Part shown: positions 5,585 through 55,960 of the stretch, piece after piece
Layout: each line of letters begins with the position of its first letter
How positions within the stretch are numbered: position 1 is the stretch's first letter
IMG/VR virus record: IMGVR_UViG_3300017917_000199
Coordinates: 20,962 to 84,961 of that record
Length of the DNA: 64,000 nt
Strand: one strand, 5' to 3'
From: a virus
Made by a program: the position numbers and the translations under genes
Notes under the pieces: model-generated
Database searches by the model: none
What the model was told of the DNA's origin: nothing
The model's input: only the letters and a program-made list of their open reading frames with translations

Positions 5585-6592
5585 TTACTTAATTTGACTC
5601 CAAACTCTTTCACGTATCTGTTTTGTTAGACTGTCTGGTAATGGTACATAATCTAAGTCTGTAGCATCTTTCTTGCCATTCTTAAACGCCCAGTCAAAGA
5701 ACTTTAATACTTCTTGGCTTCTTGCTTTATTGTCTGGATTTTTGTACATAATCACAAAGCTAGCACTAGAGATAGGCCAAGCATTTTGACCCTTTTGATC
5801 CACAATGCTTACACCCATACCAGGAACACTAAACCAATCAGCACCGTCAGCAGCGGCAGCAAATGTAGTATCGTCTGGGTCAACGAATTTACCTGCACGA
5901 TTTTGTAACTGTAGATAATTCATATTGTTCTTTTTGACATACGCATACTCTACGTAACCAATCGCACCTTTAACTCTATTAACGTTAGCTGCAACACCTT
6001 CATTGCCTTTACCACCTACACTGCTTGCAGCTGGCCACTTGACAGCAGCACCCTTACCTACTTTGTCACTCCACTCTTTACTGACTGCTGCTAGGTAGTC
6101 TGTAAAGTTGAATGTTGTTCCGCTGCCATCAGCACGATGAACTACTGTGATATTTGTATCAGGTAATTTTTTTCCTGGATTTAGTGCAACTAACTTGCTG
6201 TCATTCCATTTAGTGATTGTACCTAGATATACTTCTGCTAGTACAGGGCCAGTAATCTTTAACTCACCTGGTTTGAAACCTTCTAAGTTAATTACAGGAA
6301 CTGTTCCACCTATAATTGTAGGGAACTGTACTTGATTGTTCTTATCTAAATCTTCACCTTTGACTGGTGCATCACTTGCTCCAAAGTCAACAGTTTTCAT
6401 ATTAATTTGTTTGATACCACCTGAACTACCGATGCTTTGATAATTTAAATTATTTCCAGTTGCTTTCTTATAGCTTTCAGCCCACTTAGCATAAACTGGA
6501 TACGGGAAAGTCGCGCCAGCGCCTGTAATGTCCGCACTGAATGCGACTGTTGATATTAACAATGCACCTAAAAGTGTTGTCAGTTTTTTCAT
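5585..6592 (-). CDS. pstS: Phosphate ABC transporter substrate-binding protein
   Basis: 335 aa, full family length. It binds phosphate in the periplasm and hands it to the host PstCAB transporter. The start at 6592 gives a signal peptide, MKKLTTLLGALLISTVAFSA, with cleavage likely after AFSA, and an AAGGAG lies 8 nt upstream. Family motifs are GAGATFPYPVYAKW at the mature N-terminus, the phosphate-binding loop SIGSSGG, GASDAPV and DGSGTTFNF. The gene is monocistronic: a Pho-box-like repeat lies upstream (6644-6661) and a terminator immediately downstream. Cyanophage pstS genes are known to be controlled by the host PhoB system, and this copy appears wired in the same way. Its role would be to raise phosphate uptake during infection of starved cells. 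Confidence 0.95.
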   Translation of the reverse strand: MKKLTTLLGALLISTVAFSADITGAGATFPYPVYAKWAESYKKATGNNLNYQSIGSSGGIKQINMKTVDFGASDAPVKGEDLDKNNQVQFPTIIGGTVPVINLEGFKPGELKITGPVLAEVYLGTITKWNDSKLVALNPGKKLPDTNITVVHRADGSGTTFNFTDYLAAVSKEWSDKVGKGAAVKWPAASSVGGKGNEGVAANVNRVKGAIGYVEYAYVKKNNMNYLQLQNRAGKFVDPDDTTFAAAADGADWFSVPGMGVSIVDQKGQNAWPISSASFVIMYKNPDNKARSQEVLKFFDWAFKNGKKDATDLDYVPLPDSLTKQIRERVWSQIK

Positions 6593-6643
6593 GTAATATT
6601 CTCCTTGTGTGTTTGTATTACACAAATATTTACTAGAAGAATT

Positions 6644-6661
6644 GTGACAATACTGTGACAA
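6644..6661 (-). promoter_or_regulatory. Pho box upstream of pstS
   Basis: On the minus strand TTGTCAC-AGTA-TTGTCAC: two identical 7-mers separated by 4 bp, giving an 11-bp period. This is the architecture of the PhoB box (CTGTCAT-N4-CTGTCAT type). A -10-like TAGTAA at 6635-6630 follows after 8 bp, as expected where PhoB replaces a -35 element. The pstS ATG is about 50 nt downstream. Confidence 0.75.
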
Positions 6662-20585: not shown

Positions 20586-20963
20586 TTAGTATACCTTATC
20601 ACTCATTGTTTCATCTTCCATCGGCTCATCCGATACAAGCAGTATATCATTAGGATCTACTTTTCGCAACGTGACTTTACCCGAAGGAGTTTCAACAGTG
20701 ATACCGCGTGTCCAACGACCGTGACTAATAAGAATGTACTTACCAATTTCTAGTTGTGGGTCTTTAACATCAGGACCTAGTCCATAAATCTTTGCCCAAC
20801 GTGGACGAATACCAGATGACTTTTTATCATCGTCTAACAGAACAATGCCACCTTTACTGATACGTTCGTCAAACTTCATGTCCGAAACAATAATGTTATC
20901 ATGCATGAAGCGTAGTTTGTCTACTTTTGTAGGACTAAATGCTGGTTTGCTATACTCGCTCAT
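20586..20963 (-). CDS. GroES / gp31-like co-chaperonin
   Basis: 125 aa, near the size of T4 gp31 (111 aa), which replaces GroES on host GroEL to fold the major capsid protein. RFMHDNIIVSDMKFDERISK is followed by GGIVLLDDDKKSSGIRP, which has the place and form of the GroES mobile loop (GGIV-type GroEL-binding tripeptide), then WAKIYGLGPDV and YILISHGRWTRGI, the GroES beta-barrel pattern. ATG overlaps the upstream stop by 4 nt. The phage also carries dnaJ and clpA, so it has a broad protein-quality set. Confidence 0.75.
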   Translation of the reverse strand: MSEYSKPAFSPTKVDKLRFMHDNIIVSDMKFDERISKGGIVLLDDDKKSSGIRPRWAKIYGLGPDVKDPQLEIGKYILISHGRWTRGITVETPSGKVTLRKVDPNDILLVSDEPMEDETMSDKVY

Positions 20964-38900: not shown

Positions 38901-39483
38901 CTGTAGTAACTTCTAAAGCATTTACAGCATAGTCACCTATGTTTCCGATACTTGCTAGAGGAAGGCCACCTGACATATCACTAGCCATAGTGATAACGAT
39001 CGGTGTTTGTAATTCAAATGTACCAGTTGTAGCATTGAATTCATAGATACCCCATGTGCTAGTTGTAGTGTCTAACCAATATGTGCCATTAGATGGTGTA
39101 CCGACTGGACGACCAACTTGACCTACTAAACTTGCTAAATCAATGTCAGCACGTAAAACGTAGCAACGATTGGTTACACCTAAAACACTGTAAGCTGCTA
39201 ATAGACCATATTCATTTAATTCATAACCTTGAATAGGTGTACCATTGGTTGTAGTATAGAAGAACGGAGTTCCATACAAATCAACCAAATCACGCTGACT
39301 TGTTACTTGATATAATTTTCCTGCATTGGCTGCTGTTGTAGCTTGAGCAACACCTGTACCAGCAGCATTAGCTTTATTCTGTGCTGTTGCTAGAAGTACA
39401 AATGGGACGGAGTTGACTGGGGCTGGAAGATATTGACTTTGGTCAATGATTGATACTTCTACGCCTGGAGATGTTAATGCCAT
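35911..39483 (-). CDS. 18: Tail sheath protein (gp18), enlarged
   Basis: 1190 aa against 659 in T4. The conserved ends are clear: N-terminal MALTSPGVEVSIIDQSQYLP and C-terminal RKEISGVVETLMIDLVAKRG with ELWIDVAVEPVKAAEFIYIP. The sheath contracts to drive the tube through the envelope. The middle (about residues 200-830) is a long Thr/Gly/Asn-rich insertion, with segments such as YWLDTTTSTWGIYEFNATTG and DMSGLYTATITVGADAESVV, that probably forms surface-exposed domains. AAAGGAA precedes the ATG, and a TAATAAATACT element lies 54 nt upstream. Confidence 0.92.
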   Translation of the reverse strand: MALTSPGVEVSIIDQSQYLPAPVNSVPFVLLATAQNKANAAGTGVAQATTAANAGKLYQVTSQRDLVDLYGTPFFYTTTNGTPIQGYELNEYGLLAAYSVLGVTNRCYVLRADIDLASLVGQVGRPVGTPSNGTYWLDTTTSTWGIYEFNATTGTFELQTPIVITMASDMSGGLPLASIGNIGDYAVNALEVTTEPNGANRTYYYKTTTNTWVVLGSNSWRNDVPTVQGGTSNPTLNPGDTFDIDMSGLYTATITVGADAESVVTAINNLGWTSLSAEVRNGKLCIFSSQILTSGVSNGNVNLSDVSGTALTDLGITAGTYYQPLLSYGTAAQMPLWTTGQSQPRPTGSVWVKVGAAGNGLNPKMSVFNGTTQTWNLKNVTLATSDAGAINDLDATGGQAIPAGTIYGQYFYNGTARTAPVYFWERIATGATVVTGTTTNPAFDAAPDTVSYYMNVYVSVPGSSTLSGPYNFTLADNSDATDFVTAWAAANIPYTTATVTTNGSIQLTHTTGGVIMMDDTVDSSFVSTNVSSGLITEAGFIVGDTGVRYGSGSTAAFTGIVQDSTSGVGSSATFNILNSYGSYIVNGTGIGDGGSGYVIGDTVTISGADLGGTTPANDLVLQVTAVSAGAATAVTYISGEPSAVYLTQLSNWVEMTYTANEGAPGVAPANNTNWFYSVVDQVDIMVNYNGAWYGYGNRNYDSSGFPTATGTNLTDPNGPIVSASEPTTQSDGTQLEYGDLWINTSDLENYPVISRWQSVSGVNQWVLIDNTDNTGSTGIVFADARWSSNQNSISPIDDPIPTIVSLLTSNNVDLDAPEPTLYPSGMLLFNTRRSGYNVKQYRSNYFNIDSFPNSVLPTYTDTWVTVSGNMTNGAPYMGRQAQRAMVVQALKAAIVTNTAIRDEDNFFNLMATPNYPELQPDMIELNGARGETCYILGDTPMRLADSGTAIQNWATNAAGASSTGEEGLVTRNTYMGLFYPSGLATDLSGNSVAVPASHMMLRTFVRNDTIAYPWLAAAGTRRGNIDNASSIGYVDSATGEFVSIKTRIGIRDILYTNFINPLVFFTGVGLLNYGNKTSFNSQSALDRTNVARLIAYIRRQLTLAARPFVFEPNDALTRKEISGVVETLMIDLVAKRGLYDYLVVCDESNNTPARIDRNELWIDVAVEPVKAAEFIYIPVRILNTGELAAV

Positions 39484-39537
39484 TTTGTTTTTCCTTTATG
39501 TAAAATTATGAGGTTTACCACCTAAAAATGCATAAAA

Positions 39538-39548
39538 GTATTTATTAA
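39538..39548 (-). promoter_or_regulatory. Late-type element TAATAAATACT of gp18
   Basis: Minus strand, 54 nt before ATG 39483, in the divergent gap between gp18 and the 39603 gene. Confidence 0.5.
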
Positions 39549-49393: not shown

Positions 49394-50659
49394 TTAAGCG
49401 TTGTTAATAGTTACGATTGGGTTAGGTTGTCCGGATACGTTAGATACTTGACCATCGATTGGGTTTGTACCTGGATACGTATTAGCTGCATAAGCTGTAC
49501 CAAATGTTGCAATGATATCTGGGTTAGCATTTGCATCATTTGTATTATAGAACACTTGTGATTGATAATCATTCAATGACTGGATATATACAGTAGCTGA
49601 ATTTGCATATGTACCAATGATGTTCATTGTGTTAGGTGTTAGTGCAGTATTAGCAACATTAGCTGTATAACATTGTGCTGTTAATCCTGTAGTAGAACCT
49701 GTAGCCAAGTATTTTGTTTTGCCCTTTTGACGAACAATATAGCCTGGCTCATTATCAGCAAATATGTAATTTGCATTAGTAAAAGTTATCGGAGGTTCTG
49801 TATCTAAAACTACTACATCAATTGTAGCATTAGCTGCGGTGGTTCCAGTAGTTAACGCTCTTGTTGGTCCGTATTGTGTATTAGATACCGTAAAGGCTGC
49901 TGCGTTAGCAATAGTTTTAACAAAGTATGTTACACCTGCTACTAGACCACCTGTGTTCGCGTCGAATGTCACTGGCGCACCAACAAACAATGTTTGTGCG
50001 TTGCCAGAAGTACCAATAACATTTCCTGTAGCACTTGTGTTAGCAACAGCAACTGTAATATAACCTGTAACAGTATCAACAAATCCAACATCAACATAAT
50101 CTGTGCTGCCATTGATATTAGCTACAGCTACTTGTAGTGCTGAGCCAACTGATAACGTATTAGAGAAGTCAGTACCCTGACCGTAAACATTTAAGTTACC
50201 AGGATCACCGTACATTGTACCTACACCCACTTGACCAATAGCAACTTGACATAGTGTTTGTGAACCATAAAATGCTGTATTGCCACCAACTACACCGTAG
50301 CTTGTGCTGTTTGTTGCTGTGTTAGAACCATCAGGGTTACTAAATCCACTGTCAACTAATCCAACGGTAGCTGCTACTGTTGTACTTGTTGTAGTAGAAA
50401 GATTTACTGGGGTAAATGTTGGGTTAGCGTTTAATGGAGTAGCTGAAACAGTAAATGTGCTTGCTCCGGTTATTTTTAATATCCAATATGTTGTTCCACC
50501 TGTTAATCCACCTGTAGTTGTTGCTGGTACAACTGACATACCTGCAATAATACCTAATGTTGATAATGTCTGTGATACGGTTACTTCTTCTGTTGTTCCA
50601 TTAGTACCTGTGATTGTTAAGACTGCCTGAGCCTTAGATATTTTTAGAGGGCGTCCCAT
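49394..50659 (-). CDS. Repetitive virion protein, paralogue of 51498 gene
   Basis: 421 aa, Thr/Val/Asn-rich beta protein. MGRPLKISKAQAVLTITGTN opens like the 51498 protein (MGNALKIRK), and both share an IVRQKG-x-x-K-(Y/F)-L motif and PNTM further on. Two copies of the YY(V/W)-K/FTVS domain lie at about residues 35-85 and 220-280. Probably a fibre, decoration or baseplate protein. Its ~80-nt leader is structured and conserved with that of the paralogue. Confidence 0.65.
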   Translation of the reverse strand: MGRPLKISKAQAVLTITGTNGTTEEVTVSQTLSTLGIIAGMSVVPATTTGGLTGGTTYWILKITGASTFTVSATPLNANPTFTPVNLSTTTSTTVAATVGLVDSGFSNPDGSNTATNSTSYGVVGGNTAFYGSQTLCQVAIGQVGVGTMYGDPGNLNVYGQGTDFSNTLSVGSALQVAVANINGSTDYVDVGFVDTVTGYITVAVANTSATGNVIGTSGNAQTLFVGAPVTFDANTGGLVAGVTYFVKTIANAAAFTVSNTQYGPTRALTTGTTAANATIDVVVLDTEPPITFTNANYIFADNEPGYIVRQKGKTKYLATGSTTGLTAQCYTANVANTALTPNTMNIIGTYANSATVYIQSLNDYQSQVFYNTNDANANPDIIATFGTAYAANTYPGTNPIDGQVSNVSGQPNPIVTINNA

Positions 50660-50750
50660 TTGTTTCTCCTTATTGATATGTGGGTTCTATTCCACTACGC
50701 GGCGGGGACCGCATAAACTCCCATCATTAGGAGCATATGATATATTTATC
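50660..50750 (-). promoter_or_regulatory. Late element plus three-hairpin leader RNA (copy A)
   Basis: GATAAATATA (50750-50741), then a leader with stems CTCC/GGAG, GCGG/CCGC and GTGG/CCAC, a ribosome site AAGGAG and ATG 50659. Between the stems, TTTATGC and GCGTAG-n-GG and AGAACCC are shared with copy B at 52392-52483, while the paired bases differ in compensating ways. Confidence 0.65.
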
Positions 50751-51429
50751 AACGAAGGTCAAAAAGCAGTATCTCAGAGTTATCAGGATTTGTTATTTCT
50801 ACTATGTTTTCGTTTTCAATAGCAAAACCACCTAACGTAGGGCTTTCTATACCGTTAATAGTAGCAGTTCCTGATATAATATACATATAATATCTGCGAT
50901 TACTATTCAAATGTAACGTATGATTCTTTGTAAAGATGCCTGCAAACACTTTAGCATCACTATTGATGTATATAGGACCATTCTCGCTAGCAATAGGACA
51001 GAACTTGTCTAGTTTATCTTCTCTAGTGAACTGCATCACATCATATTGAGGAGCAAAGTTATGTTTGTTAGGACGTAACCATATCTGTAGATAACGAATA
51101 GGCTTATCTGATAGATTGCCTTCAGTGTGCCATATGCCAGTTCCACTGCTCATGCGCTGTACACACCCACTAGGTACTTCCCCGTAGTTGTGTAAATTGT
51201 CATTGTGATAGCAAGGACCATCGATAATGTATCCTAAAATTTCCATATCACAATGTTGATGAATGGGCACACAGTTTCTGGGCTGAACTCTATCATCGTT
51301 GATAACTTCTAAATCGCTGAAATGGATATAGTTAGGGTCATAGTAACTATTGTTACTAAAAGTACGATATGTTTCAATCCAGTCTTCTTTGAGATGGCCT
51401 AATGTATCAGGATGTCTAAATTTAATCAT
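50749..51429 (-). CDS. Pirin-family cupin
   Basis: 226 aa. Pirins are bicupin Fe proteins; bacterial ones include YhaK and YhhW (quercetinase). The four metal ligands of pirin are visible: VPIHQHCDMEILGYIIDG (H-x-H) and VQRMSSGTGIWHTEGN (H-x-E). The second cupin half (RRYYMYIISGTATINGIESP) is present. Length is usual. It lies between the two paralogous virion genes 49394 and 51498; a terminator separates it from the latter, and a TTAAATAT element lies just before the ATG. Function in infection unknown. Confidence 0.85.
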   Translation of the reverse strand: MIKFRHPDTLGHLKEDWIETYRTFSNNSYYDPNYIHFSDLEVINDDRVQPRNCVPIHQHCDMEILGYIIDGPCYHNDNLHNYGEVPSGCVQRMSSGTGIWHTEGNLSDKPIRYLQIWLRPNKHNFAPQYDVMQFTREDKLDKFCPIASENGPIYINSDAKVFAGIFTKNHTLHLNSNRRYYMYIISGTATINGIESPTLGGFAIENENIVEITNPDNSEILLFDLR

Positions 51430-51444
51430 GCAGATATTTAATGG

Positions 51445-51466
51445 AAAAGCGGCATAAGCCGCTTTT
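51445..51466 (-). terminator. Terminator after 51498 gene
   Basis: AAAAGCGGC-TTAT-GCCGCTTTT on the minus strand, with T run, about 32 nt after the stop. Confidence 0.8.
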
Positions 51467-51497
51467 TCTTTTGAGTGTTATTTGATTTAACTCAATA

Positions 51498-52391
51498 TTA
51501 ACACCAGTTCTCTGTGCCAGCTAGAGTATAAACTAAATCATTTGTAGCTGCTGGGTCAGGGATAGTATTACCACCGTCGTTAAAGAATGTAGCTGAGTAT
51601 GTTACACCTTCATTGCAATTGTCATATGGTGTTTCAAAGTTTGTACTGAATTTGTTCTTCAAGCGACTTGCATAGTATGTGTCACCATCATCATAAATTG
51701 CAACACTCATTGTGTTAGGCTCTGTCGGGCTGTTTAAGTTTACTAACAAACATGTAGCAACTGGCCATACATAACCGTTTGTTGTAAGACCTGTACCGTC
51801 TTTAGTTGCTGTAAAGATATCATATTGTCCAGCAGTTGCGTCAGCACCTAATGCTACCCAATCAGTATCACCAACGTCAGCAATCATGTATGCTTGACCA
51901 GCAGCAATGGATTCATCTTGAATGTTATTATTAGTACTAGCAACTAAGAATTTTCTAGAACCTTTTTGACGTACAATAGATGCATTGCTTGTAGCAGTGT
52001 AATACCATGCGCTGTCAGTAACATCTACAGCAGAAGGGTCACCTAATTCTACTTCACCGTCATCTGTTATGCTATCGATAATACCAAGTGAAGTATATCC
52101 GCCTGCACCATCATCTACCCAAATCTGTGAGCTACCGGTGTTAATTCCGTCTGTAGTAAAGTGAGTTCCTGTTCCAGTAACAGTAGTGCTGCTAGTAGTA
52201 GCAGTAATAGTTCCCAAACCTTTTACTAATACCGCTGCATCACAACGGATCATATCGCTATCTTCGTAGATACCGCCTACGATACCGGGTTGATTATCAT
52301 CATAACCATTGTTTGTACTACCATCGTTAGGGAAACCCTGATCTACAACTTGGCCCCCTTGATATTTTCTAATCTTTAATGCATTTCCCAT
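51498..52391 (-). CDS. Virion protein, paralogue of 49394 gene
   Basis: 297 aa. MGNALKIRKYQGGQVVDQGF at the start, ASIVRQKGSRKFLVAS (about 140) and SPTEPNTMSVAIYDDGDTYY (about 225-245) parallel the 49394 protein. The first half has a GTGTHFTTDGIN segment typical of phage beta-structures. It lacks the YYVK-type domains of its paralogue. Likely a fibre- or decoration-type protein. Its leader RNA is conserved with that of 49394. Confidence 0.65.
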   Translation of the reverse strand: MGNALKIRKYQGGQVVDQGFPNDGSTNNGYDDNQPGIVGGIYEDSDMIRCDAAVLVKGLGTITATTSSTTVTGTGTHFTTDGINTGSSQIWVDDGAGGYTSLGIIDSITDDGEVELGDPSAVDVTDSAWYYTATSNASIVRQKGSRKFLVASTNNNIQDESIAAGQAYMIADVGDTDWVALGADATAGQYDIFTATKDGTGLTTNGYVWPVATCLLVNLNSPTEPNTMSVAIYDDGDTYYASRLKNKFSTNFETPYDNCNEGVTYSATFFNDGGNTIPDPAATNDLVYTLAGTENWC

Positions 52392-52483
52392 TTGTTTTTC
52401 CTTTAAATGTTTGCGGGTTCTAGCCGCTACGCAGTGGGTTACTGCATAAATTCTCCCTATGAGAATGTTATAAAGTATTTATC
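52392..52483 (-). promoter_or_regulatory. Late element plus three-hairpin leader RNA (copy B)
   Basis: GATAAATACT (52483-52474), then stems ATTCTC/GAGAAT, GCAGT/ACTGC and GCGG/CCGC, a ribosome site AAAGGAA and ATG 52391. Stem positions match copy A with base pairs exchanged. Confidence 0.65.
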
Positions 52484-55635: not shown

Positions 55636-55664
55636 ATTATACTACTCTGAAACTCTCTCCGCAA
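55636..55664 (-). promoter_or_regulatory. Sigma70-type promoter of exonuclease gene, predicted leaderless
   Basis: TTGCGG (55664-55659), 17-bp spacer, TATAAT (55641-55636), 6 nt, ATG 55629. The -35 is poor beyond TTG but the -10 is perfect. It lies inside the 3' end of the IscA gene. Confidence 0.6.
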
Positions 55665-55960
55665 CCACAACGGTCACGTTCGTTCGGGTTTTTAAACTCA
55701 AACCCTTCATTAAGTCCGTTTCTTACATAGTCTATTGTCATGCCCTTAACATATGGGCAGCTTTTTGGATCAACATACAATGAGCACCCATTACAGTCAA
55801 TTGCAATATCTTCTGGATTGGGGGTGTCAACATATTCAAGGACATAGGCTAAACCAGAACAGCCTGTCGTTTTGACTCCTATTCTGATTCCTAATCCTTT
55901 GCCCCTCTTTGCGAGAGTTTGTTGTACTTTTTTGCTTGCTACTTCTGTGATTGATATCAT
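55637..55960 (-). CDS. IscA/ErpA-type Fe-S carrier
   Basis: 107 aa, the usual A-type carrier size. Accepts and delivers Fe-S clusters. The three conserved cysteines are in place: VKTTGCSGLAYVLEY (first) and RCGCGESF (second and third). Also GFEFKNPNERDRC. Two additional cysteines (CNGCSLYVDPKSC) are not part of the usual set. A host-derived gene, probably for maturing phage or host Fe-S enzymes (for example a ribonucleotide reductase activase), but no client is encoded in this window. Confidence 0.9.
   Translation of the reverse strand: MISITEVASKKVQQTLAKRGKGLGIRIGVKTTGCSGLAYVLEYVDTPNPEDIAIDCNGCSLYVDPKSCPYVKGMTIDYVRNGLNEGFEFKNPNERDRCGCGESFRVV

Follow-up and report, generated by a model that had tools for sequence, protein, structure and literature searches.

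Freshwater-2 RNA as a conserved three-hairpin 5' leader of a late, putatively virion-associated gene family in jumbo phages

The virus record IMGVR_UViG_3300017917_000199 (84,961 bases) contains two copies of a leader RNA, both located in the window analysed in this study, a stretch of 64,000 nucleotides (positions 20,962 to 84,961 of the record). Both leaders lie on the minus strand, each between a GATAAATA box and the ATG of a gene. The ATGs are located at 50657-50659 and 52389-52391, and the distance from the GATAAATA box to the ATG is about 83 nt, in agreement with the roughly 80 nt given in an earlier note on this DNA. The features are as follows.

52476..52483, minus strand: late promoter element of leader 2, T4-type, GATAAATA (sequence)
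52389..52466, minus strand: freshwater-2 RNA copy 2 (RF02980), from stem 1 to the start codon (cmscan, R1 model)
52450..52466, minus strand: copy 2 stem 1 hairpin, AUUCUC-AUAGG-GAGAAU, conserved in position and free in sequence (Rfam alignment)
52428..52448, minus strand: copy 2 stem 2 hairpin, UAUGCAG...CUGCGUA, with invariant lower stem and U-G wobble (alignment, covariation)
52413..52427, minus strand: copy 2 stem 3 hairpin, GCGG-CUAGAAC-CCGC, with near-invariant loop (alignment, covariation)
52399..52404, minus strand: Shine-Dalgarno sequence of leader 2, AAAGGA (sequence)
51498..52391, minus strand: MGRP-family gene 2 (297 aa, MGNALKIRKYQ...), downstream of leader 2 (sequence comparison)
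50743..50750, minus strand: late promoter element of leader 1, T4-type, GATAAATA (sequence)
50657..50733, minus strand: freshwater-2 RNA copy 1 (RF02980) (cmscan, R1 model)
50717..50734, minus strand: copy 1 stem 1 hairpin, GCUCCUA-AUGA-UGGGAGU (RNAfold)
50696..50715, minus strand: copy 1 stem 2 hairpin, UAUGCGG...CCGCGUA (alignment, covariation, RNAfold)
50680..50695, minus strand: copy 1 stem 3 hairpin, GUGG-AAUAGAAC-CCAC (alignment, covariation, RNAfold)
50666..50671, minus strand: Shine-Dalgarno sequence of leader 1, AAGGAG (sequence)
49394..50659, minus strand: MGRP-family gene 1 (421 aa, MGRPLKISKAQ...), downstream of leader 1 (sequence comparison)

A pirin-family (cupin) gene (50749-51429, minus strand; Pfam PF02678, E 1.5e-20) lies between the two leader-bearing genes. 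Elsewhere on the minus strand, the window encodes by sequence an IscA/HesB-like iron-sulfur protein with CGCGESF near its end (55637-55960) and a PstS-like phosphate-binding protein (5585-6661), a candidate auxiliary metabolic gene.

Both leaders matched the Rfam family RF02980, "freshwater-2 RNA", over the full model length (positions 1-84) in cmscan. The scores were 69.9 bits for copy 2 and 57.5 bits for copy 1, above the gathering cutoff of 49.9. A more permissive covariance model built from 43 leaders (hereafter R1) gave 81.1 and 64.2 bits, respectively. The last three positions of the freshwater-2 model are the ATG of both window genes, so that the RNA stands in cis to them. Sequence, three-hairpin architecture and start-codon-proximal position agree with RF02980 over the full model, with no difference in kind, and the two leaders are almost certainly members of this family. 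The RNA, which the earlier note presented as new, is already known as an Rfam family, to which the window adds two members. What is new here is its context, namely jumbo phages, a late promoter, one gene family and a capsid module, of which no description was found in the available literature. The Rfam match by itself comes without the jumbo-phage host, the late promoter, the single target gene family and the capsid-module synteny.

The three hairpins and the stem sequences quoted in the earlier note are present. Its parsing of the remaining blocks, however, has to be corrected. In the Rfam alignment, both leaders consist of stem 1, a 7-bp stem 2 (UAUGCgG/CcGCGUA, including a U-G pair) and stem 3 with the loop YUAGAAC. 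TTTATGC and GCGTAG, described as unchanged linkers between the stems, thus contain UAUGC and GCGUA, the lower half of the seven-pair stem 2, and AGAACCC, described as another such block, is the loop of stem 3 together with its 3' strand. The compensatory base pairs that had been noticed between the two copies do exist, but clean cases are few: one in stem 2 (G-C to A-U) and one in stem 3 (U-A to C-G). Since there are only two, this pair of leaders alone is weak evidence for a selected structure.

At the other late genes of the window, the leaders are shorter and fold simply, if at all. The tail-sheath gene is preceded by a late box and has a similar start region (AAAGGAAAAACAAAATG) with a different, single hairpin (AGGTGGTAAACCTC) at 39481-39547 (minus strand). 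A 20-bit match of R1 at these positions was rejected, being due mainly to the shared Shine-Dalgarno sequence and start region.

Further leaders were collected from IMG/VR by two pattern scans. The first, whose pattern contained neither the TAAATA box nor the MGRP protein start, gave at least 120 loci. The second ignored the hairpins and required a late box, 63-93 nt, a Shine-Dalgarno sequence and an MGRP start. It gave at least 109 further loci, all of which showed the three-hairpin architecture on inspection; a loose core pattern covers 106 of them, and the remaining three deviate by a longer loop 2 or a compensated stem 2. At least about 200 leaders were collected in total, and removal of those above 85% identity left 103 as a sample among the matches listed. 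The box or the MGRP start was part of the pattern for part of this set, and the association with these two features is therefore partly built in. Since the first scan used neither and still reached the same gene family, the association with the gene is not wholly built in.

Covariation was counted from fixed anchors in the 103 leaders and is therefore independent of any structure-fitted alignment. The inner pair of stem 2 is G-C in 59 leaders, A-U in 31 and U-A in 12, with one mismatch. Its mutual information is 1.30 bits against a shuffle maximum of 0.11, which is far beyond chance. Three pairs of stem 3 gave 1.24, 1.19 and 1.33 bits against at most 0.26 in shuffles. The lower part of stem 2 is invariant and the YUAGAAC loop of stem 3 near-invariant; UAGAAC occurs in 95 of the 103 leaders, and the loop ends 17-34 nt before the ATG. 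In a sequence-only MAFFT alignment of 43 leaders, stem 2 was paired in 100% of cells and stem 3 in 84%. The covariation score of this alignment was 0.305, compared with 0.055-0.115 when the partners were slid and 0.104 when they were shuffled. Relatedness among the leaders was controlled by dereplication and partner sliding, not by a tree. These comparative data strongly support selection at the RNA level on stems 2 and 3, and the selected structure proposed from the two window copies is borne out in both sets of leaders.

The strictly conserved blocks, taken alone, could be sites in DNA, such as a cruciform, a protein site or a recombination site. The probability of such a DNA-level element is practically negligible in view of the compensatory changes and the fixed placement between late box and start codon. 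The third pair of stem 2 is, moreover, U-G in 101 of the 103 leaders. This pair would be A-C on the other strand, and its retention indicates that the structured molecule is the mRNA (sense) strand.

Stem 1 behaves differently from stems 2 and 3. Its sequence is free across clades, and it was not registered by the 43-leader alignment (44% paired). A hairpin with at least five perfect pairs was nevertheless found at its position in 74% of leaders, compared with 26% of shuffles, and the leaders as a whole fold better than shuffles (mean z -2.5). With stem 1 placed just behind the predicted transcription start and conserved as a fold rather than as a sequence, the leader might be an mRNA stabiliser that needs no specific ligand, its 5'-terminal hairpins protecting the late transcript against 5'-end-dependent decay. 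Such a stabiliser, however, would need neither the near-invariant YUAGAAC loop nor the invariant lower stem 2. One would also look for it on other abundant late genes, that of the capsid for example, yet the RNA usually occurs once per genome, on one family. We regard this explanation as somewhat unlikely. A reading of the leader as a nut/boxB-like site, with loop 3 and CGCUCUUA in stem 1, was dropped, since the sequence of stem 1 is free.

The surroundings of the hairpins were also analyzed. Each of the 103 leaders has a TAAATA box 18-51 nt (about 25 nt) before UUAUG, a feature on which they had been selected. A Shine-Dalgarno sequence and an A-rich start region, AAACAA, are conserved next to the hairpins. 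The Shine-Dalgarno sequence is not generally masked in predicted folds, its mean unpaired probability being about 0.6 with or without a CUUCU segment. These features are what would be expected if the leader worked without a trans factor, as a self-contained translation enhancer or a ribosome standby structure, and kept the A-rich start region accessible. The RNA, however, is absent from homologues whose Shine-Dalgarno sequence is similar, and the constancy of the loop 3 sequence is left unexplained, which makes this explanation quite unlikely. A Shine-Dalgarno switch, in which an RGACUUCU segment pairs either with the Shine-Dalgarno sequence or with the UAGAA loop of stem 3, seems very unlikely. 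A GACUUCU-like segment, complementary to both AGGAG and AGAA, is present in 42 of the 103 leaders, but it is absent from the other 61 and from both window leaders, and neither loop 3-linker nor linker-Shine-Dalgarno complementarity exceeds that of shuffled pairs.

Pseudoknots of loop 2 or 3 with the linker, the Shine-Dalgarno sequence, the start codon or the 5' end likewise showed no leader-specific complementarity above shuffles. Since these tests of pairing in cis were negative, the fixed loop 3 and lower stem 2 are in keeping with a trans factor that recognises them. A helix closing off the three hairpins, G[U/C][U/C]C with GG[A/G]C, was rejected: it is perfect in a few clades (that of L157, for example) and not significant overall, 58 of 500 shuffles being at least as good even in a favourable subset. 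In the clade of L157, L176, L181 and L225, the 5'-end AGTTCAA can pair with TTGGACT after stem 3, and the three hairpins would then be enclosed in a four-way junction; this clade often has GAGAAC in loop 3 and CUCCU in the linker.

No conserved upstream ORF of the kind found in leader-peptide attenuators was detected in the freshwater-2 leaders. Reading frames that start at the AUG of UUAUG run for 1-38 codons and fall in all three phases relative to the gene, so that a translated leader peptide is unlikely. No terminator-like U-run was seen by eye after the stems. These two facts make attenuation unlikely.

The genes behind the leaders form one family. Among the matches listed, the loci of the first scan lead into genes starting with MGRPLKI, MGRALKIQK, MGRPLNKRYFG and similar sequences, their 109 distinct downstream proteins form one similarity component, and each leader collected precedes this one protein family with an MGRP start and a beta-rich core. 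Such a strict tie to one late gene speaks for gene-specific control. The core is shared around 'IVRQKG..KFLV'. The two window proteins, called paralogues in the earlier note, do share the core domain in a profile-to-profile comparison (hhalign, E 9e-14), but they are distant, direct BLASTP giving E 0.01. The same gene pair with both leaders occurs in the phage contig L002, which supports the view that the leader is common to two paralogous late genes. An AlphaFold2 model from 30 sequences predicted a beta-rich core (mean pLDDT 76.6). No significant match to this core was found in the PDB, and no RNA-binding fold can therefore be named. The best matches of the model were uncharacterised phage proteins; proposed surface proteins of Yersinia phages fHe-Yen9-03 and -04 matched weakly. 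PHROGs gives no function for the family.

Genes for the portal, head maturation protease, a scaffold-like protein and a T4 gp23-like major head protein are located upstream of the family gene. Among the matches listed, the major head gene was found upstream in 65 of the 94 loci that hold at least 3.5 kb of upstream sequence, and it ends within 250 nt of the family gene in 29 of 107 loci. The loci with no upstream major head gene belong mainly to the MGRPLKI clade, which includes the window. This synteny gives indirect support to the earlier assignment of the two genes to the virion, and because of it we infer a head-associated, decoration-like role for the MGRP protein. Atu_ph07 and some other jumbo phages of the group carry hair-like fibres on head and sheath (PMC7824862), and a link between these fibres and the MGRP protein is a possibility.

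The tail tube protein of the window is closest to those of the jumbo phages Phosso, PA5oct and Atu_ph07. When 20 phage records were searched whole, the motif scored above the cutoff in 16, with one such copy each, including records of 525, 345, 335 and 328 kb. Atu_ph07, Phosso and two other records with family genes showed no motif in the same search. With R1, nothing convincing was found in PA5oct, SCTP-2, Atu_ph07 and Phosso. Searches of INPHARED with blastn and tblastn gave no motif in phage isolates, the gene homologues of Atu_ph07 and Phosso being without it. Five pattern matches in GTDB genomes were discarded, having no score in Rfam or with R1.

A scan for a late box with a short leader gave 18 contigs, 17 of which encode the MGRP family (some are near-identical, and one is Atu_ph07); the short leaders of these 17 are without the motif. 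Three loci (L143, L148 and L154) contain a family gene without the motif and a separate copy of the motif. The earlier note had counted homologues with unrelated leaders against its claim. Such short leaders do exist, although they leave the covariation evidence intact. The gene can therefore do without the RNA, which is an addition specific to it, and family genes with and without the leader form a clean comparison set.

In one phage, a second match below the threshold is more likely to be a ROSE-like element. A ROSE_3-like RNA thermometer (L287:1501-1600; positions 244996-245092 of the 335-kb phage record G002) scored 34.5 bits against a cutoff of 43 (E 1.1e-4). It is located just 5' of a phage Hsp20-like gene (148 aa, L287:1595-2041), contains a UCUUGCU anti-Shine-Dalgarno segment, and is flanked by phage ClpX- and ClpS-like genes. 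A phage-borne heat-shock thermometer, if true, would be unusual.

Two known phage operators were compared with the leader. In the gene 43 operator of T4 and RB69, a hairpin whose loop is conserved stands about 40 nt ahead of the start codon (PMC3014915). The freshwater-2 leaders likewise place a conserved-loop hairpin upstream of the start codon of one phage gene, which in the gene 43 case serves single-gene control (PMC3014915). The gene 43 operator, however, consists of a single hairpin, has a UAAC loop and belongs to a mainly early gene that encodes a replication protein (DNA polymerase), whereas the freshwater-2 leader has three hairpins on a late head-module gene. The T4 gene 32 leader is also structured and serves a single gene; some T4-like phages have this leader and others lack it (PMC3014915). 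It is a pseudoknot, unlike the freshwater-2 leaders, in which none is supported, complementarity being equal to that of shuffled pairs.

On sequence evidence, freshwater-2 appears to be a conserved three-hairpin 5' leader of a late virion-associated gene family in jumbo phages related to Atu_ph07 and PA5oct. The role in translational regulation or mRNA stability suggested in the earlier note is plausible. By analogy with the known operators, we tentatively favour translational control of a single gene, with stems 2 and 3 of the late virion mRNA serving as the bound operator, while granting that this reading may well be wrong. If transcription starts from the late box, stem 1 would lie close to the 5' end of the mRNA and may help to protect the transcript; its free sequence would suit a stabiliser or a spacer. 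Stems 2 and 3, in which a loop and the lower stem are fixed, would form the putative binding site of a phage-coded protein, which may be the MGRP protein itself or a head protein. The bound protein would tune the translation of one gene in the manner of the T4 gene 43 operator, the ligand and the direction of control being presumed. The leader would thereby match the supply of a head-associated protein to capsid assembly. As to the ligand, the N-terminus of the MGRP protein is also conserved in homologues without the RNA, and nothing therefore marks this protein as the one bound. The Shine-Dalgarno sequence, largely open in the predicted folds, also counts against an operator. The more specific version, a late-gene autogenous operator whose stem 2/stem 3 unit is bound by the head-associated protein encoded behind the capsid gene or by the capsid protein, seems rather unlikely. 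If true, it would couple protein synthesis to capsid assembly in giant phages. Freshwater-2 has been an orphan motif, one of many catalogued structured RNAs without a function, and its gene, promoter and capsid context now turns it into a testable hypothesis.
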